Shown one piece after another: positions 15,983 through 63,784 of a DNA stretch of 64,000 nucleotides (position 1 is its first letter; every line of letters starts with the position of its first letter). The position numbers and the translations under genes were made by a program. Under the pieces are notes generated by a model. The model was not told the DNA's origin and made no database searches. It saw only the letters and a list, made by a program, of their open reading frames with translations. The DNA comes from Bacillota bacterium (lineage in GTDB: Bacteria > Bacillota > Clostridia > Oscillospirales > Acutalibacteraceae). The stretch is taken from positions 1-64,000 of the forward strand of contig JAETSA010000006.1 in assembly GCA_021769885.1 (NCBI GenBank), written 5' to 3'.

Positions 15983-15987
15983 ACGGA

Positions 15988-16024
15988 TTTTACCATAACA
16001 ACGCTCCGCGTTTTTATGGTAAAA
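15988..16024. repeat. Long palindrome upstream of zinc-ribbon/TPR gene
   Basis: Arms TTTTACCATAACAACGC and GCGTTTTTATGGTAAAA form a 17-bp stem with one mismatch and a 3-base loop. The outer ATGGTAAAATAA sequence also occurs at the start of repeat copy 1 at 4636. It could be an operator or a terminator-like hairpin. Confidence 0.6.
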
Positions 16025-16057
16025 TAAATTAAGATTGAAATACAAGGAGGTATTGCC

Positions 16058-18558: not shown

Positions 18559-18833
18559 TAGGGTTAACCGATAAATCTGAACTCGCCCAAAAGGCGCATC
18601 CTGCGGGCACTTTTGCACTTATCGCGCTTGCAAGGCGTCAGCCTTGCTGTGCGCTCTGCGCCCAAAATTGCACCACATTATACGCCTTTTGGGTCGTAGA
18701 ATTTTCGGGAGCGAGATTTTCGGTTAGCCGCGGCAAAACCGCAGGCAATCCTGTCGGATTGCCGAGGATTTTAACAAAGGATTAGCGGAAATCCAGCCCC
18801 GAAAATCGGGTTCGGATTTGTCGGTTAACCCTA
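18559..18833. repeat. Structured interspersed element, copy M1
   Basis: About 271 bp bounded by long inverted repeats (left arm TAGGGTTAACCGATAAATC..., right arm its complement with 2-3 changes), flanked by TA on both sides. It contains hairpin a at 18631-18646 (CAAGGC-GTCA-GCCTTG) and hairpin b at 18744-18763 (GGCAATC-CTGTCG-GATTGCC followed by GAGG). It shares loops and motifs with M2 (32814), M3 (39331) and, for hairpin a, M4 (49879). Its right end supplies the TAG stop of ypeB. No ORF of note. Confidence 0.75.
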
Positions 18834-20174
18834 TTTCGTCAAAACGCCGTCGTCGGAATACAGAAGCAGAAGAATGTCATCCTCATAGCCCGTTACGGTG
18901 TTGATATAGACCAAAAGCTCTGCGCCCTCGCTGTTTTTGCAGTGAAATTCATAAGCGGTGCGTTCGCCTGCACTTTCCGTAGGAATGACCGCCAAACGCG
19001 TATCGATGACCGTCAGAAGGGGGCTGACCTTTTTCTGCGCTTCCGCCGCAGGTATTGCGGGTGTGGGGTGCGTGCGCGTTTTGTGATTCATCACATAGCC
19101 GCGGCAGTCGGCAGAGAGAATTTTACCGTTTTCGAGACTGACGCTGATTTTAATCAAATCGGGATAGCAGATATATTCCCCGTCACGGTAGGCATAATTG
19201 ATGGTGCAAATGCCGTCGGATACCGTGTAGTAGCTTTCGGTCATATCTAAAAAACCGTTTTTGTTTAAAAATTCCACAGCATATTTTCGCGCGTCGGCAT
19301 ATTCCAGTTTGCTCTCGCCCGCAAAGTGACCCGACAGCAAATACAAAAGATAGCCGCCTTTTTTTGTAATCGCAACGGTACTGTCGCCGCCCGAAAAGCA
19401 ATAAGCCGCAGTTGCATCTGCCTCCTCGGAAAGAAAAGTAACGTCTTTTTCGGCAAGCCCCAAAACAGCGGCGGCTTTACGGAGCGCCTCTTCTTTTGTG
19501 ATTTCGGATTTGTCCTGCAGGAGTGCCGCATCGCGTTGGTTGATATGGTCGGAGAACGGACCGTCATACAAAAGCGAAGGATATTCCGTCAAGGACTGCT
19601 CGGCATCCTCCATATTTTTCGAAAGCGATGCAATTTGTTCACCCTTTTGCTCAAGCGTGCTTTCGGCAGTTTCAAAATCCAAATATCCGTCAAACAACTG
19701 CTCGCGCATCGCGGAAATATCCTCGGTCAGCGTTTCGGAAAATCGCAAAAGCGCAAAAAGCTGTTCACGCTCTTCTGCTGAAATGGTTTCGCCGCGCTCC
19801 ACCTTTTTGCTGAGCGCTGTCACAAAATCGCCGATTTGCGACAGGAATTTATACGTGTTGTCAAGTCTTGCTTCCGAAAGCGGTAAAACGGCAAGGCTGC
19901 TTTTGGCGCCCGTTGCTTCCCGCCGCAGCTGTGAAGCCATGGTGCCGAGCATGGTCGGGGTGTTTGCATAGACGCCTTTTTGCAAATCGGTGTGTATATT
20001 GCTGATATACGTGTCCAGCTCGCAAAGCGCGCGTTCGTGGGCGATGCGGATTTGCCGCTGACTGCGCGCGGCGCGGACGTTGCCGACAATGGAAAACGTC
20101 AGCAATACGGTAAACACCGCCAAAGTGTAGGCATACAGGCGGATTTTTCGGCGTTTGGATACGGTTTTTCCCAT
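18831..20174 (-). CDS. ypeB: Germination protein YpeB
   Basis: A 447-residue protein with an N-terminal membrane helix (about 13-35), a coiled YpeB domain and three PepSY-like domains toward the C-terminus (for example KEEALRKAAAVLGL and LVYINTVTGYEDDILLLL). In Bacillus YpeB localises and stabilises the cortex-lytic enzyme SleB in spores, and the two genes form an operon. No sleB is next to it here; the upstream gene is divergent. The ATG at 20174 follows AGAGGTGA; a long in-frame extension upstream covers a promoter region and is rejected. The TAG stop lies at the border of element M1. Confidence 0.88.
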   Translation of the reverse strand: MGKTVSKRRKIRLYAYTLAVFTVLLTFSIVGNVRAARSQRQIRIAHERALCELDTYISNIHTDLQKGVYANTPTMLGTMASQLRREATGAKSSLAVLPLSEARLDNTYKFLSQIGDFVTALSKKVERGETISAEEREQLFALLRFSETLTEDISAMREQLFDGYLDFETAESTLEQKGEQIASLSKNMEDAEQSLTEYPSLLYDGPFSDHINQRDAALLQDKSEITKEEALRKAAAVLGLAEKDVTFLSEEADATAAYCFSGGDSTVAITKKGGYLLYLLSGHFAGESKLEYADARKYAVEFLNKNGFLDMTESYYTVSDGICTINYAYRDGEYICYPDLIKISVSLENGKILSADCRGYVMNHKTRTHPTPAIPAAEAQKKVSPLLTVIDTRLAVIPTESAGERTAYEFHCKNSEGAELLVYINTVTGYEDDILLLLYSDDGVLTK

Positions 20175-20252
20175 AGATTTCACCTCTTTGTTACAATTTG
20201 CAAAAAAACGGAAAATATACCGAAAAATCTTAAAAAAATATGCGGATTTGGT

Positions 20253-20281
20253 TTGCCAAAGCAGCGAAATTCGTGTATAAT
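20253..20281 (+). promoter_or_regulatory. Sigma-A promoter for cysteine desulfurase operon
   Basis: TTGCCA at 20253-20258, a 17-base spacer and TATAAT at 20276-20281, about 48 bases before the first start codon. Confidence 0.75.
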
Positions 20282-20329
20282 AAAAAACTGAATTAAAATG
20301 CGTTATTTTATGAAAAAGGAGTGTGTGTG

Positions 20330-21463
20330 ATGGAGTGCTATTTAGACAACAGCGCGACGACCAAGCCCTGCAAAGCGGCAGTCGCGGCGGCGGTAGAAAC
20401 GGCAACCGACGTATTTGGCAATCCGTCCTCTCTGCACCGTCACGGGTTTCGTGCCTTGCAGCTTCTTGAATCGGCGCGTGCGGCGGTGGCAAAGCCGCTT
20501 TCGGCAGAATCGGGAGAGATTTATTTCACACCGAGCGGCACAGCGGCGAATAATACGGCTATCTTCGGCGCGGTGCAAAAGAATCGGCGCAGAGGCAATA
20601 AGATTGTCACCACGGCTTACGAGCATCCAAGCGTAGAAAAATGTATGGCGCGTCTGGAGTCAGAGGGATTTACGGTCGAGCGGCTTGTGCCGGACAGTCA
20701 CGGCAACATCACAGCGGCGCAGTTCGCCGATGCGATTGACGAAAATACGATTTTGGTAAGCTTAATGGCGGTCAATAATGAAGTCGGCAGTATTTTGCCG
20801 TTCGAATCGGTTGCCGCCTTAATTCGGCGCAAAAAATCCCCCGCACTTTTGCACGTGGACGCCGTACAAGGCTTTTTGAAGCTGCCGATTGTTCCGAAAA
20901 AATGCGGGATTGACCTTTTAAGCGTCAGCGCACATAAGGTACACGGCTTAAAAGGCGTGGGTGCGCTGTATATGAAAAAAGGTGTGCAGATTCCGCCTTA
21001 CATTTTAGGCGGTGGGCAGGAAAACGGGCTTTGCTCGGGCACACAGGGTATGCCTGCCATTGCCGCATTCAAAGCGGCGGTGGACGCGTGCGGCGACGTG
21101 CGGAAAAATCTGACGCACGTAAGCTCTTTAAACGCTCGCCTGCGCGAAAAGCTGACGGCGATTGCGGGTGTAACGGTGCATTCGCCCGAAAACGCGCTTC
21201 CCTATATTTTAAACATTTCGTTAGAGGGTATTCCCTCGCAGGTCAGCGTAAACTATTTGTCGGAAGCGGGCGTGTATGCTTCGGCAGGCTCGGCGTGCTC
21301 TAAGGGGCACAGAAGTCCCGTGCTGACCGCGATGGGACTTTCCCCCGCACAGATGGACAGCGCGATTCGCCTGAGTCTTTCACGCGAAACGACAGAGGAA
21401 GAAATTGATTACTGCGTGTGCGCTTTGGAAAATGCCGCCGCGCAATTACGGAAAAAGGGATAA
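20330..21463 (+). CDS. Cysteine desulfurase (NifS/IscS-like)
   Basis: A 377-residue PLP enzyme that takes sulfur from cysteine to form an enzyme persulfide. The PLP lysine lies in SVSAHKVHG and the catalytic cysteine in the flexible loop AGSACSKGHRSP. The N-terminus has YLDNSATTKP. The ATG at 20330 follows AAAAAGGAG; the GTG at 20321 overlaps that site. The gene lies directly before thiI, the arrangement known from Bacillus NifZ-ThiI, so the persulfide is probably passed to ThiI for tRNA 4-thiouridine or thiamine synthesis. Confidence 0.92.
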   Translation: MECYLDNSATTKPCKAAVAAAVETATDVFGNPSSLHRHGFRALQLLESARAAVAKPLSAESGEIYFTPSGTAANNTAIFGAVQKNRRRGNKIVTTAYEHPSVEKCMARLESEGFTVERLVPDSHGNITAAQFADAIDENTILVSLMAVNNEVGSILPFESVAALIRRKKSPALLHVDAVQGFLKLPIVPKKCGIDLLSVSAHKVHGLKGVGALYMKKGVQIPPYILGGGQENGLCSGTQGMPAIAAFKAAVDACGDVRKNLTHVSSLNARLREKLTAIAGVTVHSPENALPYILNISLEGIPSQVSVNYLSEAGVYASAGSACSKGHRSPVLTAMGLSPAQMDSAIRLSLSRETTEEEIDYCVCALENAAAQLRKKG

Positions 21464-32813: not shown

Positions 32814-33091
32814 TAAGCTGAGGAGAGTTGAACACAATATGCCGAAAACTTGTTTTTGCGGCGGCTTTTCACTTTTTCACCGTTGTCGGGCGTCAGCCCG
32901 ACTGCCGTCTTAAAAGCAAAAATCCATCCGCAACTCCTGCGTTTTCGGTGCTTCGCAGTTTAAAATAGTCATATTTTTGATGAAACAAGGCATAAAATCG
33001 ATGGCATACTGCCGTATGCCGAGATTTTTAACGCAGTTTCAGCGGAAATAGGGCATTTTAAACCATATCGGGTTCGGCTCTCCTCAGCTTA
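32814..33091. repeat. Structured interspersed element, copy M2
   Basis: About 274 bp with inverted ends (AGCTGAGGAGAG at left, its exact complement at right) and TA on both sides. Hairpin a is at 32886-32901 (TCGGGC-GTCA-GCCCGA) and hairpin b at 33003-33020 (GGCATA-CTGCCG-TATGCC followed by GAGA). The segment ATCGGGTTCGG near the right end also occurs in M1. It begins 1-2 bases after the DUF1846 stop codon and fills the gap to pyrG. Confidence 0.75.
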
Positions 33092-49688: not shown

Positions 49689-50117
49689 TTAATCCTTCCA
49701 ATTCCACCATTTGAGCTTTTCAGGGTCGTGCACTTCGTTTTCGGCGTAATATACCGCTGAGCGGTATACATACAGCGCGCACCGATCCTCCTGAAAGCCT
49801 TTTTTTATGCAGTCCAAATTATATAAATCGTTCGGGTCTTTGCCCTTTAAATCAGCAATACAGTGTATGCCGATATCTCCAGTACCTTGCAACGCCGAAA
49901 ACTTTGCATTATATACTGCGCCTTTTTCCGTGTAGCTGCGTTACAGTCTTTGACGGGCGTCAGCCCGTCTGCATCCTGTGCCTTGCTACGCGAAAAAATA
50001 CTTGTATCTAATTGTAAATTTTTCGGTGTTACAAGGTACTAGAAGGCTTTGCGCCATCCGTGCCCCGATACCGGGGATTTGTTGCAAATCACTTTGCATA
50101 GCAGGTGTTCCTTTCAT
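49689..50117 (-). pseudogene. Helix-hairpin-helix (Cdd1-like) gene split by element M4
   Basis: The 5' part encodes MKGTPAMQSDLQQIPGIG then ARMAQSLL. The 3' part encodes DIGIHCIADLKGKDPNDL, later CALYVYRSAVYYAENE and ends KLKWWNWKD. Together they match small HHH proteins of the Cdd1/pathogenicity-locus family, with IPGIG as the hairpin. Between them lie 160 bases of element M4. Removing 49879-50038 plus one CT copy gives ...CTT CTA GAT ATC GGC..., restoring one frame of about 88 residues. As it stands, the 5' part stops 17 codons into the element. Start is ATG 50117 or the better-spaced ATG 50102 (AAAGGA upstream). Confidence 0.8.
49879..50038. mobile_element. Structured interspersed element, copy M4, inserted in HHH gene
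   Basis: A 160-bp non-coding element with inverted ends (AGTACCTTGCAACGCCGAAA at left, near-complement at right) and CT on each side as a possible 2-bp target duplication. It carries hairpin a at 49952-49969 (GACGGGC-GTCA-GCCCGTC), identical in loop to M1 and M2, and a nearby CTGTGCC. Hairpin b is absent, so M4 is a shortened member. It encodes no protein and would need a transposase in trans. Confidence 0.7.
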
Positions 50118-54850: not shown

Positions 54851-55262
54851 GTAGAGGCGGATTTTCGCACAAACCCAACAGCGAAGCACAATCCCGTAGG
54901 GGCGCTTCACGAAGCGCCCGCGAAATCAGAACAAATTAACAGAGATAAACCACCCCGTAGGGGCGGATGAAGATTTCCCTATTAGGGAAAATGTCGCGAA
55001 GCGACAAAAGGGTAATGGCGAAGCCGTAACCACATCCGCCCGAGCACGGTCGGATCTCGTACAAACCAACGGCGAACCGCACCCCGTAGGGGCGGGTTTC
55101 CAGGCCCGCCCGAGCACAGTTGGTTTTTACACCAACCCAACGGCGAAGCGCAACTCGTAGGGGCGAACTGTGTTCGCCCGAAACGGACAGCGAGCCCGGG
55201 CTGTCCCTACGGTATGTGGACAAATAACACACAGCCCCGTAGGGGCGATTCACAAATCGCCC
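54851..55262. repeat. GTAGGGGCG multi-hairpin repeat cluster F
   Basis: Between convergent genes. Cores include GGGGCGCTTCACGAAGCGCCC (54899-54919), a GAACTG variant near 55160 and GATTC near 55241. The nested module appears with ATTTCCC / GGGAAAAT, GTCGC-GAA-GCGAC (54993-55005) and GGTAATGGCGAAGCCGTAACC. A GGACAGC / GCTGTCC hairpin lies near 55184-55205. The last core runs into the FliB-like gene and encodes its final residues and stop. Confidence 0.83.
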
Positions 55263-63151: not shown

Positions 63152-63784
63152 GTAGGGGCGCATCACGAAGCGCCCGAGCACGGTCGGATTTCGCACTCAC
63201 CCAACGGCGGAGCACAACATGTAGGGGCGGGTCTCCGTGCCCGCCCGAGGAAGCGTAAAATTCACACAAATCCTACGGAACGACACAGAGGTCGTTCCCT
63301 ACGCCTGTAGGGGTCGGCGTTCTCGACGACCCGAGGGCAGTCGAATTTTGCACAAACCTAACGGCGATACGCGAATCCTGTAGGGGCGATTCACGAATCG
63401 CCCGAGGACGGTCGGATTTCGCACAAACCCAACGGCGATACGCGAATCCTGTAGGGGCGCTTCACGAAGCGCCCGAGCACGGCTGGATTTTGCACAAACC
63501 CAACGGTGATACACAAACTCGTAGGGGCGGATGCCCTCATCCGCCCGAGCAGACGTAAAAATTTGCGCAAACAAAAACGGCGGGAGCAAGTTACGGCTAC
63601 GCCATTACCCTTTTGTCGCTTCGCGCCATTTTCCCTATTAGGGAAATCTTCCCCGCCCTACACCAGTAGGGGCGTGCATTGCGCGCCCGCCGAAGTCTGA
63701 TAAATTTACGGAACGACACAGAGGTCGTTCCCTACACCCGAAAAATTCGCACACCCCCGCACGGACAATTCACGAGTCACCCGC
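63152..63784. repeat. GTAGGGGCG multi-hairpin repeat cluster G
   Basis: About 630 bp between pckG and the convergent partial gene. At least eight cores with different stem tips occur: GCATC, GGGTC, GATTC, GCTTC, GGATG and GTGC types. GGAACGAC / GTCGTTCC hairpins occur near 63279-63299 and 63710-63731. The nested module is present in reverse orientation (GGTTACGGC-like at 63590 to GGGAAAT at 63648). The right end passes into the coding end of the edge gene. No other gene is present. Confidence 0.83.

Follow-up and report, generated by a model that had tools for sequence, protein, structure and literature searches.

Four folded elements, M1 to M4, lie in the window, that is, in the whole stretch of 64,000 nucleotides that was analysed, and they raise the question of how elements with a common fold can differ in most of their stem sequence, and whether such a family is a structured RNA or a piece of mobile DNA. 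The sequence-only reading leaned towards a structured RNA or a mobile element that depends on its folding, on the grounds that a MITE family would normally conserve its ends and that the ends of these copies differ.

Architecture and spread of the element

All four elements are present at, or within about 10 nt of, the places where they had first been noted. Their features are given below, with coordinates that include both terminal dinucleotides; R1 is a covariance model (276 positions, 74 pairs) built from 17 elements.

18559..18833, plus strand: M1, full element, TA to TA, 275 nt, subfamily 1a; R1 match at 18559-18833, 246.5 bits; single-TA empty site in genome G014
18559..18585, plus strand: M1 terminal stem, 5' arm, 89% complementary to 18807-18833
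18586..18697, plus strand: M1 arm A (ends approximate), hairpin GCAAGGC-GTCA-GCCTTGC at 18630-18647
18698..18701, plus strand: M1 central linker (approximate), family consensus about GGTCGNAGA
18702..18806, plus strand: M1 arm B (ends approximate), hairpin GGCAATCC-TGTC-GGATTGCC at 18744-18763, then GAG
18807..18833, plus strand: 3' arm of the M1 terminal stem, ending in CTA, which forms the stop codon (TAG) of a minus-strand ypeB-like ORF at 18831-20492
32814..33091, plus strand: M2, full element, 278 nt, subfamily 2a, between the genes for CTP synthase and a DUF1846 protein; R1 match, 248.3 bits
39323..39595, minus strand: M3, full element, 273 nt, subfamily 3, overlapping the 3' end of an AraC-family ORF and followed by rmuC; R1 match on the minus strand, 249.9 bits
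49883..50038, minus strand: M4, single-arm element, 156 nt, TA to TA, aligning to arm B; R1 match at 49879-50042, minus strand, 55.9 bits, arm A skipped

A full copy consists of a terminal stem bounded by TA and of two long arms, each tipped by a hairpin that is the mirror image of the other, which together give a T-shaped fold. In M1 to M3 the terminal stem measures 26-33 bp, its two arms lie about 220 nt apart, and a short linker separates the long arms; M4 has the terminal stem and one arm. The architecture first described as shared by all four copies therefore holds as a common plan for M1 to M3, with M4 as a one-arm version. What had been taken for two different hairpins, a and b, is one motif in mirror orientation (read outward from the linker: stem, a loop like TGTC or TGAC, stem, then GAG or AAG), and hairpin a of M3, read on the minus strand, is almost the same as hairpin b of M1. 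This means that M3, whose homologous orientation is the minus strand and one end of which reads TG instead of TA, had been read opposite to M1 and M2. Given the mirror-image hairpins, the element is approximately a half of about 135 nt joined to its inverted copy, the two arms having diverged.

The folds have z-scores of -10.4 (M1), -10.4 (M2), -8.3 (M3) and -8.7 (M4) against dinucleotide shuffles, and none of the shuffles folded as well. The shared loops are not chance matches, given that R1 finds M3 and M4 as well, both of which are outside its training set (M1 and M2 were in it and match by construction); the E values are 4e-67 to 4e-66 for M1 to M3 and 4e-14 for M4, and the other matches in the window at E < 0.04 are other-strand or partial matches to the same four elements. 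No ORF of 80 amino acids or more lies wholly inside M1 to M4. To judge from the flanks and from the G014 site, the stop codon of the ypeB-like ORF was probably TAA before the insertion of M1 and became TAG, with no lengthening of the protein.

In the window's own genome (2,320,414 bases, 38 contigs) the family occupies a minimum of 43 places, truncated copies included. These comprise 24 places of M2 type, 15 of M3 type and three of M1 type, merged by hand from 31, 23 and 12 BLAST rows respectively, together with M4. Several contigs of this genome end inside copies. The search of related genomes with the covariance model, which could have come back empty, found further copies: matches occur in 61 of 98 genomes of the order (the window's own included), a lower bound since at most 19 candidates were scored per genome under stricter filters. 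In an even sample of the phylum, three of 199 genomes match, namely the window's genome, G037 (from the same order) and G120, where the match is a fragment of 39 nt. A conserved 23-base pattern is found in at least 119 stretches of named GTDB genomes, and the names among the 80 matches listed are Clostridia, Oscillospiraceae, Ruminococcaceae, Ruminococcus and Eubacterium; this named set overlaps the G-numbered genomes because some appear to be identical (L139 and L066 carry the same element). Among 81 pattern matches examined as loci, 43 have complementary TA-bounded ends, and 38 of these 43 measure 274-278 nt, TA being there by construction since the selection required it; the 38 matches not counted as full-length lie at contig ends, carry deletions or have no complementary TA-bounded pair. 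One viral contig carries the element, and M1 has no plasmid match. Four loci (L003, L079, L338 and L341) are end-only remnants with a hairpin of about 30-60 nt left, most of the element having apparently been lost when short direct repeats (e.g., GGGTT or CGCC) slipped against each other.

Insertion at TA and the ends of the subfamilies

Empty sites were sought in 39 genomes of the genus with 22 joined flank pairs as queries, and 19 candidate sites were aligned. A single TA stands at the junction in seven of them, which represent six elements: L033, L034, L045 (the left end of which reads CA) and L010 in G016, L010 again in G014 (there flanked by small gaps), M1 in G014, and L014 in G012. The other 12 sites are less clean. 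TA is replaced by TG in G016 (M2, L035) and by AA in G050 (L034), the junctions of L013 in G016 and of L011 and M2 in G014 are gapped, and the remaining six lie in a host repeat in G002 or G053 and differ by about 2 nt. The L014 copy splits a glycoside hydrolase 3 gene into a left and a right piece, which correspond to profile positions 118-160 and 163-278. When the two pieces are joined with one, no or two copies of TA, only the one-TA join places both in a single open frame, and G012 has the same glycoside hydrolase 3 protein uninterrupted. The comparison of occupied with empty sites that had been proposed for these elements thus speaks for mobility, and the one-TA empty sites together with the restored frame indicate a transposable element of the MITE type.

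The flanks of 81 elements show a weak preference, with T before TA in 47 and A after it in 44. In G002, seven of the ten copies fetched (loci L267 and L269-L274) occupy one and the same position within a larger host repeat (GTCGCAGTCCGCAGACTGCG ... AGCGCAGGAGGGGCG); this repeat occurs also without the element in both G002 and G053. Among seven copies viewed in G048 and G021, the ends often read something other than TA, and some copies are found inside loops that resemble terminators; in L280, L281 and L284 the element occupies the loop of such a hairpin with ends that depart from strict TA, and target choice may differ in these subfamilies. As a general target, terminator loops were rejected: a stem score of at least 9 was reached by two of 87 elements, both from G048 or G021, against 0.11% of 1740 control TA sites, the mean scores being 2.17 and 1.54 respectively.

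The ends fall into the following groups.

Subfamily 2a (M2): TAAGCTGAGG
Subfamily 2b: TAAGGTGACC
Subfamily 3 (M3): TAGCCGGACG
Subfamily 1a (M1): TAGGGTTAACC
Subfamily 1b: TAACCATAGC
M4 (one copy seen): TACCTTGCAAC

Within each subfamily with several copies the ends are conserved, while between subfamilies they differ widely, each still pairing with its partner. The ends of the window copies differ because these copies belong to different subfamilies, and the argument that the family is no MITE since its ends vary therefore fails. The variation is nevertheless large: 25 different hexamers directly follow TA in 59 elements, and M1 and L002 have cores that are 81% identical (query 31-268) and different outer stems. 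Along the 5' arm the information content is 2 bits at T and at A (partly by construction), 0.58-1.18 at positions 3-8, 0.05-0.52 at positions 9-15, which are the most variable part of the stem, and 0.67-1.79 in an inner motif at positions 16-24. This profile indicates that the tip of the stem is partly constrained and its middle nearly free. In the 59 elements the 24-position ends are 90% Watson-Crick paired, a figure that is flattered because the GTDB part was chosen for ends complementary at 15 of 20 positions and because ten of 69 elements were excluded by name; no such complementarity filter was used in finding the window copies.

These observations bear on whether the family consists of ordinary MITEs with terminal inverted repeats, the subfamilies descending from different lost transposons, the pairing of the ends reflecting two transposase sites, and the arms being incidental. 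This reading, a plainer version of the explanation that we prefer and overlapping with it, has about an even chance of being right. It agrees with the conservation of the ends inside subfamilies, with a TA duplication like that of IS630-like elements, with the non-random tip at positions 3-8, and with paired columns that are more conserved than unpaired ones within subfamilies (e.g., 0.026 versus 0.108). It accounts less well for the two arms, which covary too, although they are not terminal repeats, and whose length is preserved in many genomes, and for the presence of six different ends in one genome, where no partner was found for the one end searched (2a).

Pairing of the stems and the search for a mobilising enzyme

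In alignment A1, which was made without structure, 93.9% of the cells are paired and both-sided changes occur in 50 of the 74 pairs, in agreement with the proposal that structure is kept while sequence changes. The covariation score is 0.632, compared with 0.183 (sd 0.012) for shuffled alignments and 0.06-0.135 for slid partners, controls that both lean in favour of the structure, since it was taken from this alignment, whose rows are related to one another. The terminal stem and both arms covary, with both-sided changes in seven of eight helices; helix 7 (5 pairs) has none. Within the four subfamilies compared, paired columns vary less than unpaired ones (0.072/0.105, 0.026/0.108, 0.065/0.120 and 0.032/0.056), and pairwise both-sided changes number 54 in subfamily 2a and are rare in the other three (1, 6 and 3).

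Template-switch correction of palindromes has been described for RNA genes (PMC8794818) and may help to keep the stems of the element matched. One likely case, to judge from its sequence, is L038: the two sides of its arm-B hairpin region are exact complements at a place where relatives read GAT or GAC. Template switching during replication could in principle perfect the palindromes by mutation alone, with no selection on folding, as the L038 arm, a block change of the tip hairpin in subfamily 2a, the balance of mismatches between the strands overall and the published mechanism would allow. We consider this improbable as a full account, given that most changes within subfamilies are one-sided and that neither conserved unpaired motifs nor a constant length across genomes is expected from correction alone.

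Candidate mobilising enzymes, of the DDE_3/IS630 and Y1 families, were sought in the host genomes, IS630 being the initial guess in view of the TA target. The IS630 profile DDE_3 (PF13358) gave no match over its cut-off in 40 genomes, with one weak match below it, and NF033545 exceeded its cut-off in two of 98 (G061 and G064, both element-positive), the window's genome not being among them; IS630 matches of any strength at E <= 0.001 occur in 31 of the 98. IS630 was therefore rejected as the mover for the genomes searched. No larger autonomous element with the 2a end was found in the window's genome (G000), nor one with the G002 end in G002, G001 and G053, and the unpaired ends that were inspected are remnants, shortened copies or contig ends; autonomous partners can be lost. 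Among 1283 ORFs beside copies, compared all against all, the larger clusters read by eye contain no recurrent transposase, some of these clusters being inflated by duplicates of one place; no noteworthy gene recurs beside the copies either.

Y1 transposases match in 23 of 40 genomes, the window's own included, and their presence is mildly associated with that of the element (20 of 30 element-positive genomes against three of 10 negative ones; Fisher p 0.066). This association, together with the two inverted hairpins in a T or clover fold, is what an enlarged REPIN would show if inverted REP-like hairpins were moved as single-stranded DNA by a single-copy Y1 tyrosine transposase of the RAYT kind. 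The element duplicates TA, and Y1 elements are not known to make a target duplication. Ten of the 30 element-positive genomes, some of them incomplete, have no Y1 match. Moreover, 16 stretches around Y1 genes (113,414 bases) hold one weak partial element match, about 1.6 kb from the gene, whereas REPs are described as lying beside their RAYT (PMC3116915). A Y1/RAYT mover is thus not supported, and we hold this origin to be very doubtful.

A separate REP family with a GTAG head (e.g., GTAG-GGGCGATT-CACG-AATCGCCC) occurs in the window at 54900-54919, 55243-55262, 63384-63403 and 63455-63474, among other places; REPs with this head are usually tied to RAYT transposases. Another palindrome, of the ATTTTACCATAAC...GTTATGGTAAAAT type, lies at 15987-16025, and at L223 (contig C14) a stretch bounded by palindromes of this type lies inside a 2a element, apparently a different small element nested in it.

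Mismatches in the stems bear on whether pairing is kept in DNA or in RNA, given that selection on one RNA strand should make G·U exceed A·C. In the terminal stem of 59 elements there are 47 G·T and 60 A·C mismatches (p 0.25), or 48 and 60 with two duplicates retained; that count left out eight of 69 elements by name, a threshold of 17 of 24 pairs removing no more. The absence of a strand preference in the terminal stem argues against a single RNA strand being selected. When the alignment gives the two kinds of mismatch equal treatment, arm A has 181 G·T and 194 A·C (16 elements rich in G·T, 26 in A·C), and arm B 163 and 126 (34 and 18 elements), a modest excess. A consensus-fold count of arm B gives 132 versus 26, with five of the 69 elements left out, and it favours G·U and includes a conserved TT/GG wobble. 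The opposite leans of the two arms accord better with a pair of inverted halves than with a single folded RNA. Rfam gives no match at the gathering score in the window or in eight loci, and for M1 none at E <= 1. The structured RNA that had been suggested for these elements, read on one strand, is thus supported neither by the mismatches, which are symmetric, nor by Rfam, arm B alone leaning modestly towards G·T; a role for RNA in both orientations remains compatible with the data. An integron attC-like site and mimicry of a tRNA T-arm by GGTTCGGAT were dropped on inspection by eye.

That the family is a regulatory RNA also spread by copying is very improbable, since the stable fold, the covariation, the arm B counts and a weak, non-significant co-orientation with flanking tandem genes (26 same, 14 opposite, p 0.08) are set against a terminal stem with no G·U excess, an arm A that leans the reverse way as expected of mirror halves, the lack of an Rfam match and of a recurrent neighbour gene, and copies that lie also between convergent genes (16 of 66 classified) and, in L014, inside a gene.

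A MITE-type element with mirror-image arms

The family is short and non-coding, has terminal inverted repeats, duplicates its target and is present in multiple dispersed copies, as MITEs are. M1 to M4 are thus very probably members of a non-autonomous, protein-less element of the MITE class that inserts at TA and duplicates it, is mobilised in trans by a transposase, and has its palindrome kept at the DNA level. The transposase would be encoded away from the copies, or have since been lost, and would recognise two mirror-image ends, each made of an inner motif (about ATCCGAAC) and an arm with its tip hairpin. Cutting would take place at the basal TA of the paired ends. Much of the outer stem would then need only to match its partner, and the palindrome would be maintained in DNA because transposition needs two matched ends or a cruciform, with occasional template-switch repair of the stem helping to keep it. 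Movement may depend on folding, a reading that is compatible with the data. Points against this explanation are that no mobilising enzyme was found in the genomes searched, that 12 of the 19 sites are not clean, that copies in G048 and G021 often have ends other than TA, that both-sided changes are rare within three of the four subfamilies compared, and that the outer stem is under partial constraint. A MITE-type element that is moved in trans and carries unusual constraints is the safest reading.

A further proposal goes beyond this, namely that the ends are recognised by shape and internal motif and hardly by their outer sequence, so that one host-encoded enzyme would move all subfamilies across the order, acting on DNA in a T shape (cruciform or single-stranded), whose self-complementary ends co-evolve freely, and cutting at the TA at the base of the stem. 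We regard it as rather unlikely.

According to PMC2229807, bacterial MITEs are short, end in TA and fold by pairing from end to end, CIR being a two-armed exception; lengths of 70-300 bp are given in PMC3733652, and the TA-ended Correia/NEMIS, ERIC/IRU and RUP are about 100-200 bp (PMC2229807). With these last three the present element shares its non-coding nature, terminal inverted repeats, TA ends, target duplication, stable long stem-loops, and intergenic plus some intragenic copies; compared with them as portrayed in PMC2229807, it is longer, carries two mirror arms on an end-to-end stem, has many unrelated ends, and extends across many genera of an order in whose tested hosts IS630 is nearly absent. 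Two arms joined by a linker are seen also in the CIR elements of Caulobacter and Brucella, which are given in PMC2229807 without an end-to-end stem and with target duplication marked '?'; the element described here has both. REPINs resemble it in having two inverted palindromes, a hairpin or clover fold and presumed movement in trans, and CGTC REPs in having no known enzyme (PMC3733652). It differs from REPINs and REPs, as presented in PMC3116915, in the TA duplication, in the 275-nt unit with a terminal stem, and in the lack of clustering near the Y1 genes examined; the GTAG-type REPs of the window are a separate family. BOX of Streptococcus is likewise a tightly folded repeat with paired ends, there judged to be parasitic, but it is modular and ranges over 67-637 bp (PMC3049150), whereas the present element is of nearly fixed length with two mirror arms. 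For an element of the MITE type, paired ends that differ widely between subfamilies, a nearly constant length and two mirror arms are unusual. No earlier description of the family was found in the literature searched, which covered few subscription papers and preprints.

Palindromes like ERIC, Correia and BOX are common, and for most of them the mover and the reason for folding remain obscure. The present family is a large natural data set, with many genomes, subfamilies, usable empty sites and covarying stems, in gut and rumen bacteria that are nearly without IS630 as far as searched. Its covariance model helps to annotate sequence that breaks assemblies, and the family makes it testable whether the ends of such elements are recognised by sequence or by shape.
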